A DNA stretch of 41,310 nucleotides from positions 1 through 41,310 of the forward strand of contig NZ_BBAJ01000016.1 in NCBI RefSeq assembly GCF_001311195.1, written 5' to 3'. This stretch comes from Lacticaseibacillus camelliae DSM 22697 = JCM 13995 (GTDB lineage: Bacteria; Bacillota; Bacilli; Lactobacillales; Lactobacillaceae). Shown here one piece after another: positions 15,821 through 26,877 of this stretch; the stretch's first letter is position 1, and each line of letters opens with the position of its first letter. Under the pieces are notes generated by a model. That model worked only from the letters and a program-made list of their open reading frames with translations. It did no database searches and was not told where the DNA came from. The position numbers and the translations under genes are program-made.

Positions 15821-15833
15821 TATTCCTGTTGTT

Positions 15834-15917
15834 GCCGCAATGGCGGAATTGGCAGACGCGCAGTGTTCAGGTCGCTGTAGGGTTTTCCCTGTGCAGGTTC
15901 GACTCCTGTTTGCGGCA
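15834..15917 (+). tRNA. tRNA-Leu (anticodon CAG), copy 1
   Basis: Acceptor GCCGCAA/TTGCGGC, discriminator A, no encoded CCA. The anticodon stem CAGTG/CGCTG (one G-U pair) holds loop TTCAGGT, anticodon CAG. A long variable arm with a GTAGGG/CCCTGT-type stem follows. The sequence is identical over its 84 nt to the copy at 23108. It has its own promoter and terminator. Confidence 0.95.
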
Positions 15918-15930
15918 TCAGGCGACATCG

Positions 15931-18441: not shown

Positions 18442-19952
18442 ATGAAGAAGTATCTGTTCTTTCGCGTACTTCGTTCAATCGTGAGTATCTTTCTGGTCAC
18501 GACCCTGACATTCATCCTGATCTACACGATGATCCCACGACGGGACGTGTTCAAGCAGGATCCGATGATCAACAAGTTGTCCTCGAAGCCCGACTCGCTG
18601 ACTGATTACAAGAATAACGCGTACGAAAAAAATGAACTACATGGATTACAAGGACACTAGGTCACTGATCAAGACGGTCGAGAAAGCCGATCCTAAGGTC
18701 ACAGTGACAGCTGCCCATACCGCCTCCAACCAAGCTGCGTTCGAAAAGTGGACGAAGGCTAATGGTTATACCTTGCACCGCTTTAAGATCAGCAAGGATT
18801 ACTATGCTACGCGTGATCTGCCAATTTGGGAACGGCTCGGCCGCTTCTATGGCAATATGATCAAAATCGATACCCCGTGGGCCATTCATGACCCGAAAAA
18901 CCCGAATCTGCCGCGCTACCTGAAGATCAAGCATGATCCTTTGGTTGGCTGGGCTGTCGTTGGTTCGGGGACAAAGTACCGTTACCAGCTTTACTTCAAC
19001 TCGAAGTTTCCGTACATTCACGAGAACTTCTTGAAGTTCAACCTTGGGACTTCCTATCCAACTTATGCTGGCGAACCTGTCAGTGAAGTGATTGGCGGCG
19101 GCCAAGGCCCTGCCGACAGCATCACTAAGACGTTCCCGAACGGTCGTAAGCTCATCACGTCTGATGACGTGTACACACGGGCCTACCAGCCGCGGAAGCA
19201 CCGCGATCCCGAAGCCTATGAACAGTACAAGGACGATTACACCAGTACCGAGCAACTCAACCGCGATCCTTCAATGGTTGGGACTTCTGTCCGGGCCGGG
19301 TTCATCGGGCTGATCATCTCGTACGCCATTGCGATTCCGATGGCCATTTACATGGCGCGGAAAAAAAGGCAAGTGGTTCGACCGCGCCGGGACCTTCGTG
19401 GTCACCGTGCTGATTGCCGTCCCGAGTCTGGCCTTCATCTACGTCTTCCGTTACTTAGGGGCCACGCTGTTCGGCCTGCCGGATTCATTTCCAACTTTGG
19501 GGGCCGAGAACTGGCGTTCTTGGGTTCTGCCTGCGGTGGTCTTAGGGCTGCTGAGCGTTTCCGGGCTGGTGATCTGGTTCCGGCGTTTCATGATCGACCA
19601 GCAGAAGTCTGATTACGTGAAATTTGCCAAGGCCAAGGGCCTGAACGAAAGCGAAATTTACACCAAGCATATCTTTAAGAACGCCTCGATTCCAATCGTT
19701 CAGGGGATTCCTGGATCTATCATCGGATTGATCGGTGGGGCCACGATGACCGAAGAGATTTTCGCTGCCCCTGGGATGGGGAAGATGCTGCCAGATTCAA
19801 TTTCTGCGCACAATAACGCGGTCGTTATCGCACTGGTCTTCATCTTCACCACCATTGCTGTTCTCTCCGTTCTGCTTGGCGACATTGCCATGGTCCTAGT
19901 TGATCCGCGAATTAAGCTGTCGTCGTCCGACACATCAAAGGGGGAGGAATAG
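18442..19952 (+). CDS. oppB: Oligopeptide ABC transporter permease OppB/AmiC type (two frameshifts)
   Basis: First membrane subunit of the peptide importer. Helix 1 (LRSIVSIFLVTTLTFILIYTMI) is followed by an external insert of about 230 residues before the remaining helices; the reconstructed 502 aa matches the long AmiC form (about 498 aa) rather than the roughly 300-aa OppB. The C-terminal half carries the permease EAA-type loop (YVKFAKAKGLNESEIYTKHIFKNAS, read in pieces). Two extra A bases break the frame: runs of seven at 18626-18632 and 19361-19367, each expected to be six. GGGGG lies upstream of the ATG. It is followed by oppC after 3 nt. Confidence 0.92.
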
Positions 19953-22032: not shown

Positions 22033-22972
22033 TAAAGAAACAATTGTTAGTCTGAAGGATCTGCAGATCTCCTTTGGCTCAGGGAAAGATAAGTTTGTTG
22101 CTGTTCAGGATGTCAACTTCGACATTTTCAAGGGTGAGACCTTCTCGCTGGTTGGCGAGTCCGGGTCTGGCAAGACCACCATTGGCCGCGCCATTCTGGG
22201 CATTAACCCAACGGAGAAAGGGACCATTACCTTTGAAGGGGAACAGATCAACGGCAAGATCTCTGAAAAGAAGAAGCACTCAATCGAACGCAAGATTCAG
22301 ATGATCTTCCAGGATCCGTCGGCCTCCCTGAATGACCGGGCCACTGTCGACTACATCATTTCGGAGGGTTTGTACAACTATGGGCTGTTCGATTCCGAAG
22401 AGGACCGCGTCAAGAAAGTTCGGACGATGCTTGAGGAAGTTGGGTTGCTGCCAGAGCAGTTGTACCGTTATCCCCATGAATTCTCAGGCGGCCAGCGTCA
22501 GCGTATCGGGATCGCCCGCGCGCTGATCATGCAGCCGGACCTCGTGGTGGCCGATGAACCGATTTCCGCGCTGGATGTTTCCATTCGGGCGCAGGTGCTG
22601 AACCTGCTGAAGAAGTTCCAGCGTGAACAGGGTGTCACCTACCTGTTCATTGCCCATGACCTGTCTGTTGTCCGGTTCATCTCGGATCGCATTGCGGTCA
22701 TTCGCGCCGGTCGCATTTTGGAGCTGGCGCCGACTGAAGAGCTGTTCACGAACCCGATTCATCCGTACACCGAAGCACTGCTTTCGGCTGTGCCAGTGCC
22801 GGATCCGCAAATTGCCCGCACGCGCAAGTCGTATGTTTACGACCCGAGCATGCACCACTACGAAACCGATAAGCCAAAGTTTGTCGAGATCAAGCCTGGT
22901 CACTTCGTTTACTGCAACGAAGAAGAACAGGCCCGTTACACCAAGGAATTGAAAGAACAGGGTCAGATCTAG
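22022..22972 (+). CDS. oppF: Oligopeptide ABC transporter ATP-binding protein OppF/AmiF type
   Basis: Second ATPase of the importer. Walker [11 protein letters not shown]-loop [12 protein letters not shown], signature [15 protein letters not shown], Walker [16 protein letters not shown] and switch His in [11 protein letters not shown] are visible. The C-terminal [16 protein letters not shown] is the usual OppF/DppF ending. The frame is intact, about 316 aa. The ATG at 22022 lies 9 nt after AAGGAGG, which is inside oppD; ATG 22016 is the alternative. It is the last gene of the operon, followed by a terminator at 23020. Confidence 0.95.
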
Positions 22973-23019
22973 TCTGCTCCTCTGGTAGGTCGTTCGGCCC
23001 CCTCTGGACGGCTTCCCGT

Positions 23020-23051
23020 AAGTCCCCACTCATCACGAGTGGGGACTTTTT
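23020..23051 (+). terminator. Terminator of the opp operon
   Basis: Perfect 12-bp stem AAGTCCCCACTC/GAGTGGGGACTT with a 5-nt loop, then T5. Confidence 0.95.
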
Positions 23052-23065
23052 GAATCCGAAAACGG

Positions 23066-23094
23066 TTGGCAAAGCGTGCCGCGCTTGCTATAAT
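23066..23094 (+). promoter_or_regulatory. Promoter of tRNA-Leu copy 2
   Basis: TTGGCA (23066-23071), a 17-bp spacer, and TATAAT (23089-23094) 13 bp before the tRNA. The -35 and the spacing equal those of copy 1, although the spacer sequence differs. Confidence 0.88.
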
Positions 23095-23107
23095 ACTAGT
23101 TGTTGCT

Positions 23108-23191
23108 GCCGCAATGGCGGAATTGGCAGACGCGCAGTGTTCAGGTCGCTGTAGGGTTTTCCCTGTGCAGGTTCGACTCCTGTTTGCGGCA
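23108..23191 (+). tRNA. tRNA-Leu (anticodon CAG), copy 2
   Basis: Identical over 84 nt to the tRNA at 15834 (acceptor GCCGCAA/TTGCGGC, anticodon loop TTCAGGT). The flanks differ beyond a short common ATCA after the 3' end, so the identity is limited to the mature gene. It has its own promoter and terminator. Confidence 0.95.
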
Positions 23192-23203
23192 TCAAAGTTC
23201 TTG

Positions 23204-23234
23204 AACCGGTCATCCCCAGATGGCCGGTTTTTTT
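23204..23234 (+). terminator. Terminator of tRNA-Leu copy 2
   Basis: AACCGGTCATC pairs with GATGGCCGGTT (one wobble) around a CCCA loop, followed by a run of T. Confidence 0.9.
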
Positions 23235-23248
23235 GTCGTCTAAAATAT

Positions 23249-23276
23249 TTGACAGCCGGGCGATGTGCAGTAAACT
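23249..23276 (+). promoter_or_regulatory. Promoter of the ABC exporter leader
   Basis: TTGACA (23249-23254), 16-bp spacer, TAAACT (23271-23276). The -35 is perfect; the -10 matches at four of six positions. The predicted start (about 7 nt past the -10) falls at or next to 23283, the A of an ATG. Confidence 0.65.
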
Positions 23277-23282
23277 GACCTT

Positions 23283-23315
23283 ATGAACATTTCAAGCAGC
23301 GCCACGGATCCTTAG
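23283..23315 (+). CDS. Possible leaderless leader peptide (MNISSSATDP)
   Basis: A 10-codon ORF with its ATG at the predicted transcription start, no Shine-Dalgarno, and a TAG stop. Its second half (from 23298) lies inside the left arm of the terminator hairpin, so a ribosome on it would keep that arm from pairing. That is the geometry of translation-coupled attenuation. Such a short ORF can occur by chance, and I know of no family for this peptide. Confidence 0.3.
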   Translation: MNISSSATDP

Positions 23316-23351
23316 TCCTTACTAGGCCTGGGTTCAGTGGCGCTTTTTTTT
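23298..23351 (+). terminator. Leader terminator / attenuator before the ABC exporter
   Basis: Long hairpin: AGCGCCAC with GTGGCGCT, extended by GGATCC with GGGTTC (wobbles and one bulged A), and a small inner TAGT/ACTA stem, followed by T8. It lies downstream of the promoter at 23249 and only 16 nt before the GTG of the first exporter gene. Full termination there would silence the operon, so a conditional attenuator is likely. Confidence 0.75.
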
Positions 23352-23366
23352 CGTGGAGGTGGCAAG

Positions 23367-25109
23367 GTGTTTAAAATCCTGATGCAAAATATGCATGGCA
23401 AGGTGCGCCTGACATTTTTTTCTTGCGCCGCTGGTCATGCTGATCGAGGTCTTCTGCGACTTGCAGCAGCCGACGATGATGGCGGACATTGTGGACTCAG
23501 GGCTGGCCAAGGGGGACATGCAGTTCGTGATCAAAACGGCGGCCTTGATGCTGATGTTTGCGTTGATCGGCATCTGTGCCGGAGGCGGGTCCGGCGTCTT
23601 GGGCAATTATGCCTCACTGCACATGGGGCAGAGCCTGCGCACGAAAATGCTGACCATTGCCTTAAATTCTCGCGCGGCTGGCGGCCTGCCGCCGGCAACT
23701 TTGATCACCCGTATCACCAACGACGTGACCCAGATGCAAAATTTGGTGATGATGATGACCCGTGGGATGGTGCGGGCGCCGATGCTGATGCTCGGCGGCG
23801 TCGTGATGTCGACGCTGGTGTCGCCGCGCCTGGCGCCGATTTTATTCGTGATCCTGCCAATTCTGCTGGTTTACACGCTGGTCGTGATGCGGCGCAGCCT
23901 GCCGTTTTACACGGACATGCAAGGCAAAACCGATGACATGAACCGAGTGATGCGGGAAAATTTGCAAGGCGCTAAGACCATCAAAGCGTTTGTGCTTGAA
24001 AATCACCAGCAGGCGCAGTTTACTGAGACCAATAACGCCTTGCTTGACAGCTCCGTGCGGGCTTCCATGGCGACGGTGCCGCTCGCGCCGGTGATTCAAT
24101 TTTTGCTCAATCTTGGGGTCGTGATCGCGTTGGCGTATGGTGGCACCCTGGACGTCGGTGGGGTGATCCTGGATGGGCAAATCATTGCCTTCATCAATTA
24201 CATGATTCAGATCACCAACGCGATGGTCATGACGGTGAACATTATCACCGCCTTTTCGCGGGCGATCACATCGGCGACGCGCGTTCAAGCGGTCCTCAGC
24301 GAGCAAGTCGGTGAGGTGCAGGTGGGTTCTGCTGCTGACGCGCCACAGGATTCGAGTGTGACGTTTGATCACGTGTCGTTCGGCTACGATCAAAGCAAGC
24401 CCATTCTGGATGACATCAGTTTCTCCGTGCCAAGCGGGCAGTGGCTCGGCATTATCGGCACCACTGGTTCCGGCAAGTCGACCTTGATCAACTTGCTGAC
24501 GCGCGGGTTTGATGATTACACCGGCACTATTAGGATCGGCGGTGTGGACACCCAGCAGCTCGACTTGGCGGCTGTGCACACAAGGTGACCGTGGCCACTC
24601 AGGACGCCATGCTGTTTTCTGGGACGGTGCGGCACAATCTGACCTTTGGTGAAAAAGCAGCCACCGAGGCCGAGCTGGCGGCCGGCGCGCACTTGGCGGA
24701 CGCAGATGAGTTCATCGAGCCGCTGCCCAAGCGGTATGATGCCCCGGTTGAGCAAGGCGGGAAGAACTTCTCAGGCGGCCAGCGGCAGCGGCTGAACATT
24801 GCGCGTGCGGCCGTGCCTGACCCGGATATTCTCGTGTTTGACGACGCGACGAGCGCGGTCGACCAAACCACGAACGCCAGGATTCAGCAGCGGCTGGTCG
24901 AGCACCGGCGCGGCCGCACGACGCTGATCATCTCGCAGCGGGTGGCCAACCTGCTGCAATGCGATCAGATCCTGGTGATGCAGGAAGGGCGACTGGCGGC
25001 CCGGGGGACCCATCAGGAGCTGCTGGCCAGCTCGCCGTTTTACGCGCAGTTGGTTGAGACTCAGCTGGGAGGAGGGCGTTTTGATGCAAGTGATGAATCG
25101 CGGGCCTAG
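23367..25109 (+). CDS. ABC exporter half-transporter with degenerate ATP site, BmrC/LmrC-like (two frameshifts)
   Basis: Membrane domain (about residues 1-300) plus ATPase domain. Walker A is GTTGSGKST and the signature is canonical [14 protein letters not shown]. Walker B ends ILVFDDATSAVD with Asp where catalytic Glu is normal, and the switch His is Gln (IISQRVANLL). These changes mark the non-catalytic partner of a heterodimeric multidrug exporter. The reconstructed length is 580 aa. Breaks: an extra T in the run 23415-23421 (TFFLAPLVMLIEV expected) and a missing A near 24581 (VHTKVTVATQDAMLF expected). The start is GTG 23367 after GGAGG. It overlaps the next gene by 26 bp. Export of drugs is a family-level inference. 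Confidence 0.88.
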
Positions 25110-26877
25110 ACACAACCTGCACCAGGAAAAGGCCCAAGTCACGGACTGGCAGGCGACGGCGCGGCGGATTTTAGGGTACATTGGGTTTGCGCGCGGCAAG
25201 CTGATTATTGTGTTTGTGCTGACCATCTTCACCACCGCGGCGACCATTATTGGCAACCGGGTCAACGGCATTGTCGTCGATCAGTTTCTCAAGGCCAGCA
25301 AGTTGCATTTGCTTTATGTCATCTGCTTGGTCCTTGGCGTGATGTACCTGCTCTCGGCGGTGTTCACCTATTTTCAGAATGCGGTGACGGTAAAAGTCGC
25401 CCAGAAGGCGTCGGCGGACATTCGCCGTGATATCTTCAGCAATCTCCAGCGCCTGCCGATGCGCTACTTTGACACTCATGACAACGGGGATGTGATGTCG
25501 CGGCTGACCAACGACGTGGACAACATCAACACCGCCATGATGCAGACCTTTGTCCAACTTTTTACGGGCATTGTTTCTGTCGTGGGCATGGGGGCAGCGA
25601 TGCTGGTGCTGTCGCCGCTCCTGACGCTGATCGCGCTGGCCGCCTCGGGGTTGACGTACCTGTTCACCCGCGCTGCGGCTAAGGTCACGCAGAAGGCCTT
25701 CATGACGCAGCAGGAGGCACTGGGCGCTTTGAACACGCAGATTGAGGAATCGGTTTCGGGTAAGCAGGTGGTCCAGCTTTTTGACCACGAGGCGGACACG
25801 ATGGCGACATTTAATCAGACCAATGCGCGATACACGCATGCCGCGTTCATCGCCCAGTCTGTGTCCAGCTTTATCGGGCCGGTGAACAACGGGACCAACA
25901 ACCTGGCGTACCTTGCCATCACCGCCGCAGGGGCATTTTCGATCCTCACCGGCAGCAGTACGATCACGGTTGGGATCATCTTCACGTTTCTGATCTATCT
26001 GCGCAATTTCACCGGGCCGATCAACAATGTCCTGAATTTGATCAACACCCTGCAGCTTTCGCTGGCTTCGGCTGAGCGTGTCTTTGAGGTGATCGATGAG
26101 CAGCCGGAGAAAGATGTCCCAGAGGCGGTCTCAGTTAAAACCACCACCGGGCACGTTGAGTTCGAGCACGTTGATTTTGCCTATGAACCGGGCCGCCAGA
26201 TTTTGCATGACATTAACCTCGTTGCTGAACCTGGCCAGACCATCGCGCTGGTAGGGGCAACCGGCGCGGGCAAGACCACCATCATGAACTTGCTGACCAA
26301 TCTTTACCCGCTGCAGTCCGGCCGGGTGCTGCTGGACGGTCGCGACGTGACTTTGATTCGGCGTGAGGACCTGCGGCACTTGATCACCGTGGTTCAACAG
26401 GAGCCCTACATGTTCCAGCTGTCGATTCGAGAAAACATTCGGCTGGGCCGAGCCGATGCGACCGACGATGACGTGGTGCTGGCGGCGCAGCGCGCCCATG
26501 CAGACGGGTTTATCCGCCAGCTGAAGGACAGCTATGATACCGTGCTAGCCGAGAATGCGCACAACATCTCGCAGGGCCAGCGGCAGCTGCTCAGCATTGC
26601 CCGTGCCTTCATTGCTGAGGCGCCGGTGCTGGTCTTGGATGAGGCAACGGCATCAATCGATTCCAACACCGAGGCGGATGTTCAGCGGGCCATGACCGGG
26701 CTGATGAAAGGCAAGACCAGCTTTGTGATTGCCCACCGGCTGTCTACGATTCGTCACGCTGATCAAATTCTGGTCATTGATGATGGGCGCGTCGTGGAGC
26801 GCGGCACGCACGAGGAACTGCTGAAGCGCAACGGGGCGTATGCTGCCTTGTACAACAGTCAGTTCGATCAGCATTAG
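25084..26877 (+). CDS. ABC exporter half-transporter with catalytic ATP site, BmrD/LmrD-like
   Basis: Partner of the preceding half-transporter. Six hydrophobic segments (about residues 35-320) precede the ATPase domain: Walker A VGATGAGKTT, signature altered to ISQGQRQLLSIARA, Walker B VLVLDEATASID with the catalytic Glu, and switch His in FVIAHRLSTIRHAD. Its intact Walker B/His with the partner's SGGQ forms one competent site; its SQGQ with the partner's Asp/Gln forms the degenerate one, as in LmrCD or BmrCD. The frame is intact at 597 aa. ATG 25084 follows GGAGGAGGG; TTG 25081 is less likely. Confidence 0.93.
   Translation: MQVMNRGPRHNLHQEKAQVTDWQATARRILGYIGFARGKLIIVFVLTIFTTAATIIGNRVNGIVVDQFLKASKLHLLYVICLVLGVMYLLSAVFTYFQNAVTVKVAQKASADIRRDIFSNLQRLPMRYFDTHDNGDVMSRLTNDVDNINTAMMQTFVQLFTGIVSVVGMGAAMLVLSPLLTLIALAASGLTYLFTRAAAKVTQKAFMTQQEALGALNTQIEESVSGKQVVQLFDHEADTMATFNQTNARYTHAAFIAQSVSSFIGPVNNGTNNLAYLAITAAGAFSILTGSSTITVGIIFTFLIYLRNFTGPINNVLNLINTLQLSLASAERVFEVIDEQPEKDVPEAVSVKTTTGHVEFEHVDFAYEPGRQILHDINLVAEPGQTIALVGATGAGKTTIMNLLTNLYPLQSGRVLLDGRDVTLIRREDLRHLITVVQQEPYMFQLSIRENIRLGRADATDDDVVLAAQRAHADGFIRQLKDSYDTVLAENAHNISQGQRQLLSIARAFIAEAPVLVLDEATASIDSNTEADVQRAMTGLMKGKTSFVIAHRLSTIRHADQILVIDDGRVVERGTHEELLKRNGAYAALYNSQFDQH

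Follow-up and report, generated by a model that had tools for sequence, protein, structure and literature searches.

A conserved terminator hairpin linked to an ABC exporter in Lactobacillaceae, probably a transcription attenuator

A hairpin of about 45 nt with the core CACGGAUCCUUAGUCCUUACUAGG stands at the predicted 5' end of an ABC exporter transcript and was found in 34 Lactobacillaceae genomes, conserved in sequence, pairing, position and gene linkage. We consider it highly probable that this premature-termination element controls the exporter, whatever its sensor may be. On the best reading of the data the conserved core, and not a ribosome, reads the signal, which would make the element an RNA attenuator embedded in its own terminator. 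A defined RNA of 60 nt seems to decide the production of a multidrug-type exporter in food and gut lactobacilli. The element was recognized in a stretch of 41,310 nt (hereafter, the window) of Lacticaseibacillus camelliae DSM 22697 (= JCM 13995), taken from one contig (C16) of a 161-contig genome of 84.5% completeness.

The features of the locus are collected in Table 1. The promoter proposed in the first-pass annotation, with an ATG at its predicted start, is borne out by both the sequence and a promoter scan: its boxes match 10 of 12 consensus positions, and the scan returned three promoter-like sites in 22500-24000 (0.7 expected). The 10-codon ORF lacking a Shine-Dalgarno sequence is likewise present, as are the stem that overlaps it and the T run after the stem; its ATG lies 7 nt past the -10 box, and a TAG closes the frame. 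As had also been claimed, the upstream tRNA-Leu gene (23107-23193) has a separate terminator (23203-23230). The exporter terminator does lie just 5' of the exporter, the GTG start codon following the T run at a distance of 15 nt and not the 16 given earlier. The hairpin stretch (23295-23352) has a predicted folding energy of -25.6 kcal/mol (z -4.5), equalled by none of 200 shuffles, and to judge from its sequence the structure is a terminator. Two tRNA-Leu(CAG) genes of the window (15833-15919 and 23107-23193) stand on either side of an opp peptide-transport operon, and tRNA-Leu(CAG) genes also occur near the exporter in four relatives (L040, L051, L057 and L064). Elsewhere in the window, a SAM-III (SMK box) riboswitch (1149-1235) lies immediately 5' of an ORF at 1236.

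Table 1. Features of the exporter leader and exporter genes, in window coordinates
Feature	Position	Strand	Basis or remark
Sigma-70-type promoter: TTGACA (23249-23254), 16-nt spacer, TAAACT (23271-23276)	23249..23276	+	Promoter scan; predicted start near 23283
10-codon micro-ORF MNISSSATDP	23283..23315	+	Kept no further than the sister species
Conserved terminator hairpin; outer stem formed by 23299-23305 and 23337-23343	23299..23343	+	Folding, alignment, covariation
Near-invariant core ACGGATCCTTAGTCCTTACTAGG, 5' side and tip of the hairpin	23304..23326	+	Alignment of leaders
GGA, possible alternative partner of UCC 23316-23318 (putative competing hairpin or pseudoknot)	23306..23308	+	
Apical hairpin CUUAGU-CCUU-ACUAGG	23311..23326	+	Covariation, folding
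UCC, putative GGA partner; its CC lies in the apical loop, conserved though unpaired in the terminator	23316..23318	+	
T8 run of the intrinsic terminator	23344..23351	+	Sequence
Shine-Dalgarno GGAGG of exporter subunit 1	23355..23359	+	Read from the sequence
Exporter subunit 1, GTG start (23367), frame-broken in this assembly	23367..25109	+	
Exporter subunit 2, ABC_membrane and ABC_tran; nearest solved relative TM_0288	25054..26877	+	

A domain search identified both subunits as half-transporters of an ABC exporter. Among solved structures, TM287/TM288 (3qf4 and kin) are closest to them, as determined for subunit 2 of the window and for the intact subunit 1 orthologue of Lacticaseibacillus hegangensis (L032); the BmrD chain (YheH) ranked lower. 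L. hegangensis is a sister species, its subunit 2 being 95% identical to that of the window. The reading frame of subunit 1 in the window shifts twice, first next to a T run at about 23.42 kb and then at about 24.58 kb, which may be assembly error or real decay. The permease gene at 18632-19952 may be another frame-broken gene in this assembly: a BPD_transp_1 permease domain was recognized only within 19329-19952, and nothing in Pfam matched the overlapping longer ORF (18632-19612).

Upstream DNA of the exporter orthologues was collected from 13 contigs and 18 further genome regions, giving 32 regions with the window, and the same hairpin lies shortly 5' of the start codon in 22 of these, the window included. 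It is absent from the upstream regions L036, L044, L056, L058-L061, L066 and L067. L. jixianensis (L033, genome G014) carries a terminator at the same place (L033 2241-2296) in which the core is replaced, a natural core-minus version. The core is conserved across genera, while the flanking DNA is unrelated between them: information content averages 1.47 bits per column in the element versus 0.24 in the 40 nt upstream, and is mostly below 0.5 past the U run (28 rows, i.e., 33 leaders minus the near-duplicates L110, L035, L055, L032 and L073). Two loop residues that are unpaired in the terminator, C24 and C25, are kept in 33 and 32 of the 33 leaders, respectively. G12 and G13 are kept in all 33, and their column partners fail to pair in 10 and 7 leaders, respectively; when the stems were folded freely, each of the two was paired in 25. 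The element is an intrinsic terminator with an unusually conserved loop, one feature of the terminator-embedded riboswitch design. No Rfam 15 family matched at gathering level; at E up to 10 there were seven weak hits, of which just one, ncS54 (13.5 bits; gathering 43), extends over the hairpin. Two strings of the core gave no match in the literature text searched, and a 13-base substring turns up in nine papers whose titles are unrelated.

The stems of the hairpin covary. The alignment used had been fitted to an earlier 12-pair model, towards which it is biased; in its 32 distinct rows the 19 named pairs are 91.8% paired (mean of 89.0 in shuffles, which keep relatedness in). Changes on both sides affect 9 pairs and 17 cells, compared to 3.4 and 4.3 in the shuffles, none of which (0/500) was as high; when the partners were slid, pairing fell to 30-44% and the doubly changed pairs to 1-3. 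Most of the covariation resides in the outer helix (6 of 8 pairs), and the apical helix shows one double change.

The distribution of the element was assessed with two covariance models. The first, built on 22 sequences, detected it in 16 of the 30 genomes of the window's genus. With a threshold of 52 bits, a second genus yielded 10 carriers among 36 genomes; an eleventh match there (L115) proved to be a plain terminator. The large samples were searched with stricter filters, able to lose weak matches: of 395 genomes sampled across the order, seven carried strong matches, each belonging to the window's own family (the two further hits with E up to 1e-4 are plain terminators), and the second model, built on 33 sequences, reached at least 52 bits in 32 of 397 genomes family-wide, the next match scoring 40.9 bits. 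Taken together, the searches yielded 34 genomes with five genus codes, the named carriers being Lacticaseibacillus, Companilactobacillus, Lactiplantibacillus, Levilactobacillus and Secundilactobacillus. A regulon of several copies was considered and rejected, since strong matches (at least 52 bits) occur once per genome; the inspected matches of 41 bits or less (L115-L117, L134-L139) lack the core and are plain terminators, and those on the reverse strand are palindrome artefacts.

The exporter lies directly 3' of the element in 32 of the 34 genomes (in G685 by position and sequence). This linkage extends beyond the training set: of ten copies new to the first model, nine precede the exporter and one a GNAT gene. 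In one of the two exceptions (L131, G701:C1:63900-67800) a transposase-like ORF separates element and exporter; subunit 1 of that genome also appears as two overlapping frames. In the other (L079/L133, G288:C6) the genome has no exporter, and the gene that follows the element encodes a GNAT acetyltransferase akin to phosphinothricin/arsinothricin acetyltransferases (below curated cut-offs). Across two genera the element is present in 25 of 33 genomes with the exporter, as opposed to one of 33 without it, namely G288. Within the window's genus the exporter is present in 24 of 30 genomes (orthologues of about 65% identity or more, three of them matched only partly), and the element occurs in 16 of these and in none of the six others, such that 8 of the 24 exporter genomes have no strong element. 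In the second genus the exporter is found in 9 of 36 genomes, and the element in all 9, versus one of the 27 without it. On a tree of 34 exporter proteins and two outgroup rows the element label changes five times (shuffled mean 8.0; 1 of 500 shuffles as low), and rows of different genera are mixed. The element is probably old, with several losses and some joint transfer together with the exporter. No regulator gene is linked to it.

The position of the element relative to promoter and gene is equally regular. In 31 of 32 leaders the stem is separated from the start codon by 20-50 nt (138 nt in L043), a distance which on sequence grounds is too short to hold a promoter; exporter transcripts therefore pass the terminator, L043 being the one possible exception. 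The best -35/-10 score found 8-35 nt 5' of the stem averages 8.4 (29 rows) versus 6.1 in shuffled sequence, and 14 of the 29 rows score 9 or more, versus 1.9 expected. In the relatives 13-32 nt lie between the end of the -10 box and the stem, and the RNA is therefore predicted to start about 6-25 nt before it. As in BmrB-type attenuators, an intrinsic terminator is located prematurely, between promoter and exporter. This part of the first-pass annotation is thereby upheld, and the comparison adds that the terminator is a conserved cis element tied to the exporter.

In the mechanism that we favor, sensor and terminator would be one structure, and the hairpin would act in cis as a transcription attenuator of the exporter. 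By default the 45-nt hairpin and its U run would form once polymerase has made about 65 nt, and transcription would stop; the sequence and the covariation show the terminator structure, and the default-off state is one that we infer. The conserved 5' strand and apical loop would bind the signal before the 3' arm is completed, and the bound core, held in another fold, would keep the stem open and allow the exporter to be transcribed. In the manner of terminator-embedded riboswitches, the RNA would sense a small molecule directly, for which a toxic compound connected with the exporter is the likeliest candidate. In a candidate alternative fold the UCC of the apical stem and loop would pair with the invariant GGA. 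This pairing is possible at its three positions in 33, 33 and 31 of the 33 leaders and, being nearly invariant, lies outside the reach of a covariation test. When the 5' half is folded alone, the apical hairpin (predicted frequency 0.34-0.47) and the GGA/UCC hairpin (about 0.35) compete; predicted energies are about -1.5 to -8 kcal/mol for the left halves, and the terminator reaches -15 to -32. The GGA/UCC pairing is weak and, according to folding, leaves the outer stem able to close over it. Since this pairing would not open the outer stem on its own and is also beyond covariation, we infer the sensing step.

Direct sensing of a small molecule by the RNA itself is thus quite possible, though we would place it somewhat below an even chance. 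Arguing against it, the leaders offered no antiterminator in which the outer left arm pairs strongly elsewhere, eight exporter genomes of the window's genus do without a strong element, and L033 retains the terminator with a replaced core. The association with nearly one gene type only would suit a protein-dependent or constitutive device too. The fullest version of the proposal, a very small terminator-embedded riboswitch class of Lactobacillaceae in which a 26-nt core with a GGA/UCC pseudoknot would sense the toxic substrate of a TM287/288-like exporter and switch the pump on, requiring neither regulator protein nor leader peptide, is tentative and, taken as a whole, rather unlikely. If the RNA does sense the compound itself, it would add a compact class to the terminator-embedded riboswitches and would reveal the natural substrate of the exporter family.

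Alternatively, a housekeeping RNA-binding protein, or an RNA acting in trans, might bind the conserved 5' strand and loop and thereby prevent or promote termination. Such a factor would account for single-strand conservation of the 5' side in excess of pairing needs in a short hairpin with no evident antiterminator in cis: among the leaders folded, neither the 5' tail nor the left half consistently provided a strong one. There is also a precedent, as some proteins bind palindromic RNA that doubles as a terminator (Naville and Gautheret, PMC2965389). On the other hand, no regulator gene accompanies the element, which, if it works, does so in five genera. A search of the window's own genome with a 17-base core (up to three mismatches) returned the element itself and one site with three mismatches; reversed-core controls gave more sites (4 and 2), and hence no RNA partner in trans was seen at that sensitivity. 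We regard a host factor as rather unlikely.

Less likely still is a fixed partial terminator, which would lower exporter expression or block read-through and respond to no signal. In its favor, the hairpin and U run are strong, the A residues of the stem can pair with the U residues as in two-way terminators, and the terminator of L033 persists without the core. However, a plain terminator has no need of a conserved loop, the other terminators that the models found in these genomes share the type of outer stem and lack the core, and the element lies within the transcript, after a promoter-like site.

The core could also be read as a DNA operator, in which a dimeric repressor would occupy the imperfect palindrome CTTAGT-CCTT-ACTAGG just past the start site. 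Although palindromy and position shortly 3' of the predicted start would fit, the spacing of the half-sites varies (L112, L076 and L064), a U-G wobble within the palindrome is conserved (30 of 32 distinct rows), G-U intermediates occur in the outer stem, and only one of the two strands has the U run after it. An operator is accordingly very improbable.

The first-pass annotation had proposed that a leaderless micro-ORF controls the pump, and had listed a lack of conservation of the ATG frame among the results that would refute this; the comparison of leaders gives that result. The same ATG and frame recur in only 2 of the 33 leaders, the window and its sister L. hegangensis, which alone has a counterpart of MNISSSATDP. 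An ATG frame reaching the stem occurs in 8 of the 33 leaders, in differing frames, and in the 25 others there is none; when GTG and TTG are counted as well, such a frame is found in 13 of the 33, none with a Shine-Dalgarno sequence by the scan used. No conserved translated ORF overlaps the terminator as in BmrB-type leaders. The shared TDP-stop ending comes from the RNA core, and the peptide is therefore not what selection keeps; in the window the micro-ORF may have a local, species-specific role. A leader peptide in another frame was also considered, as the core can be read as ...LSPY-stop with synonymous-looking changes in the loop. It was rejected: the start codon is missing in most leaders, a stop falls right before the stem in several (L039, L042), and L112 lacks the LSPY stop. 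That ribosomes start at the ATG of 23283 and, when stalled by a drug, mask the left arm so that the pump is transcribed is thus extremely doubtful: the ATG coincides with the predicted start in the window and L032 and its frame enters the left arm, but beyond the counts given above stops precede the stem closely in further leaders (L034, L035).

Several known systems resemble the element in part. The BmrB leader of bmrCD in Bacillus subtilis likewise places an intrinsic terminator between a promoter and a heterodimeric multidrug ABC exporter; as described, this leader of 53 residues is translated, has three alternative stem-loops and depends on translation for induction (PMC4191407). Unlike BmrB, the element described here has no conserved ORF, and its exporter is nearest to TM287/288 and not to BmrCD. 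The ABC-leader of Lactobacillus gasseri and L. johnsonii is a predicted attenuator preceding a multidrug export operon (PMC2965389), and shares with our element both this arrangement and its occurrence in lactobacilli. It differs in coming from two other species and in being said to form an antiterminator. The comparison is with its published description (Naville and Gautheret 2010, Fig. 4b), and the ABC-leader is a possible earlier sighting of a related element; apart from this lead, our literature search identified nothing as the element.

In the accounts of Guanidine-IV (PMC7736828) and Gd4v (PMC9788692) the terminator hairpin is part of the sensing structure, and exporter and GNAT genes are among the targets. 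Those RNAs are described as two hairpins joined by a pseudoknot; the present element is a single hairpin of about 45 nt, with a predicted start only 6-25 nt before it. A parallel in design is the HMP-PP (thiS motif) riboswitch, although the element has another sequence, precedes an exporter instead of thiamin genes, and was confined to Lactobacillaceae among the genomes searched; Rfam 15, which may not hold this class, gave no such match at E up to 10. As reported (PMC6478431), the HMP-PP aptamer resides almost wholly inside an intrinsic terminator, as would the putative aptamer proposed here. Both RNAs combine an abnormally conserved hairpin loop with tight gene association, the putative competing fold or pseudoknot of the present element may be a further likeness, and it was the abnormally conserved terminator loop that gave the authors of that study their first clue (PMC6478431).
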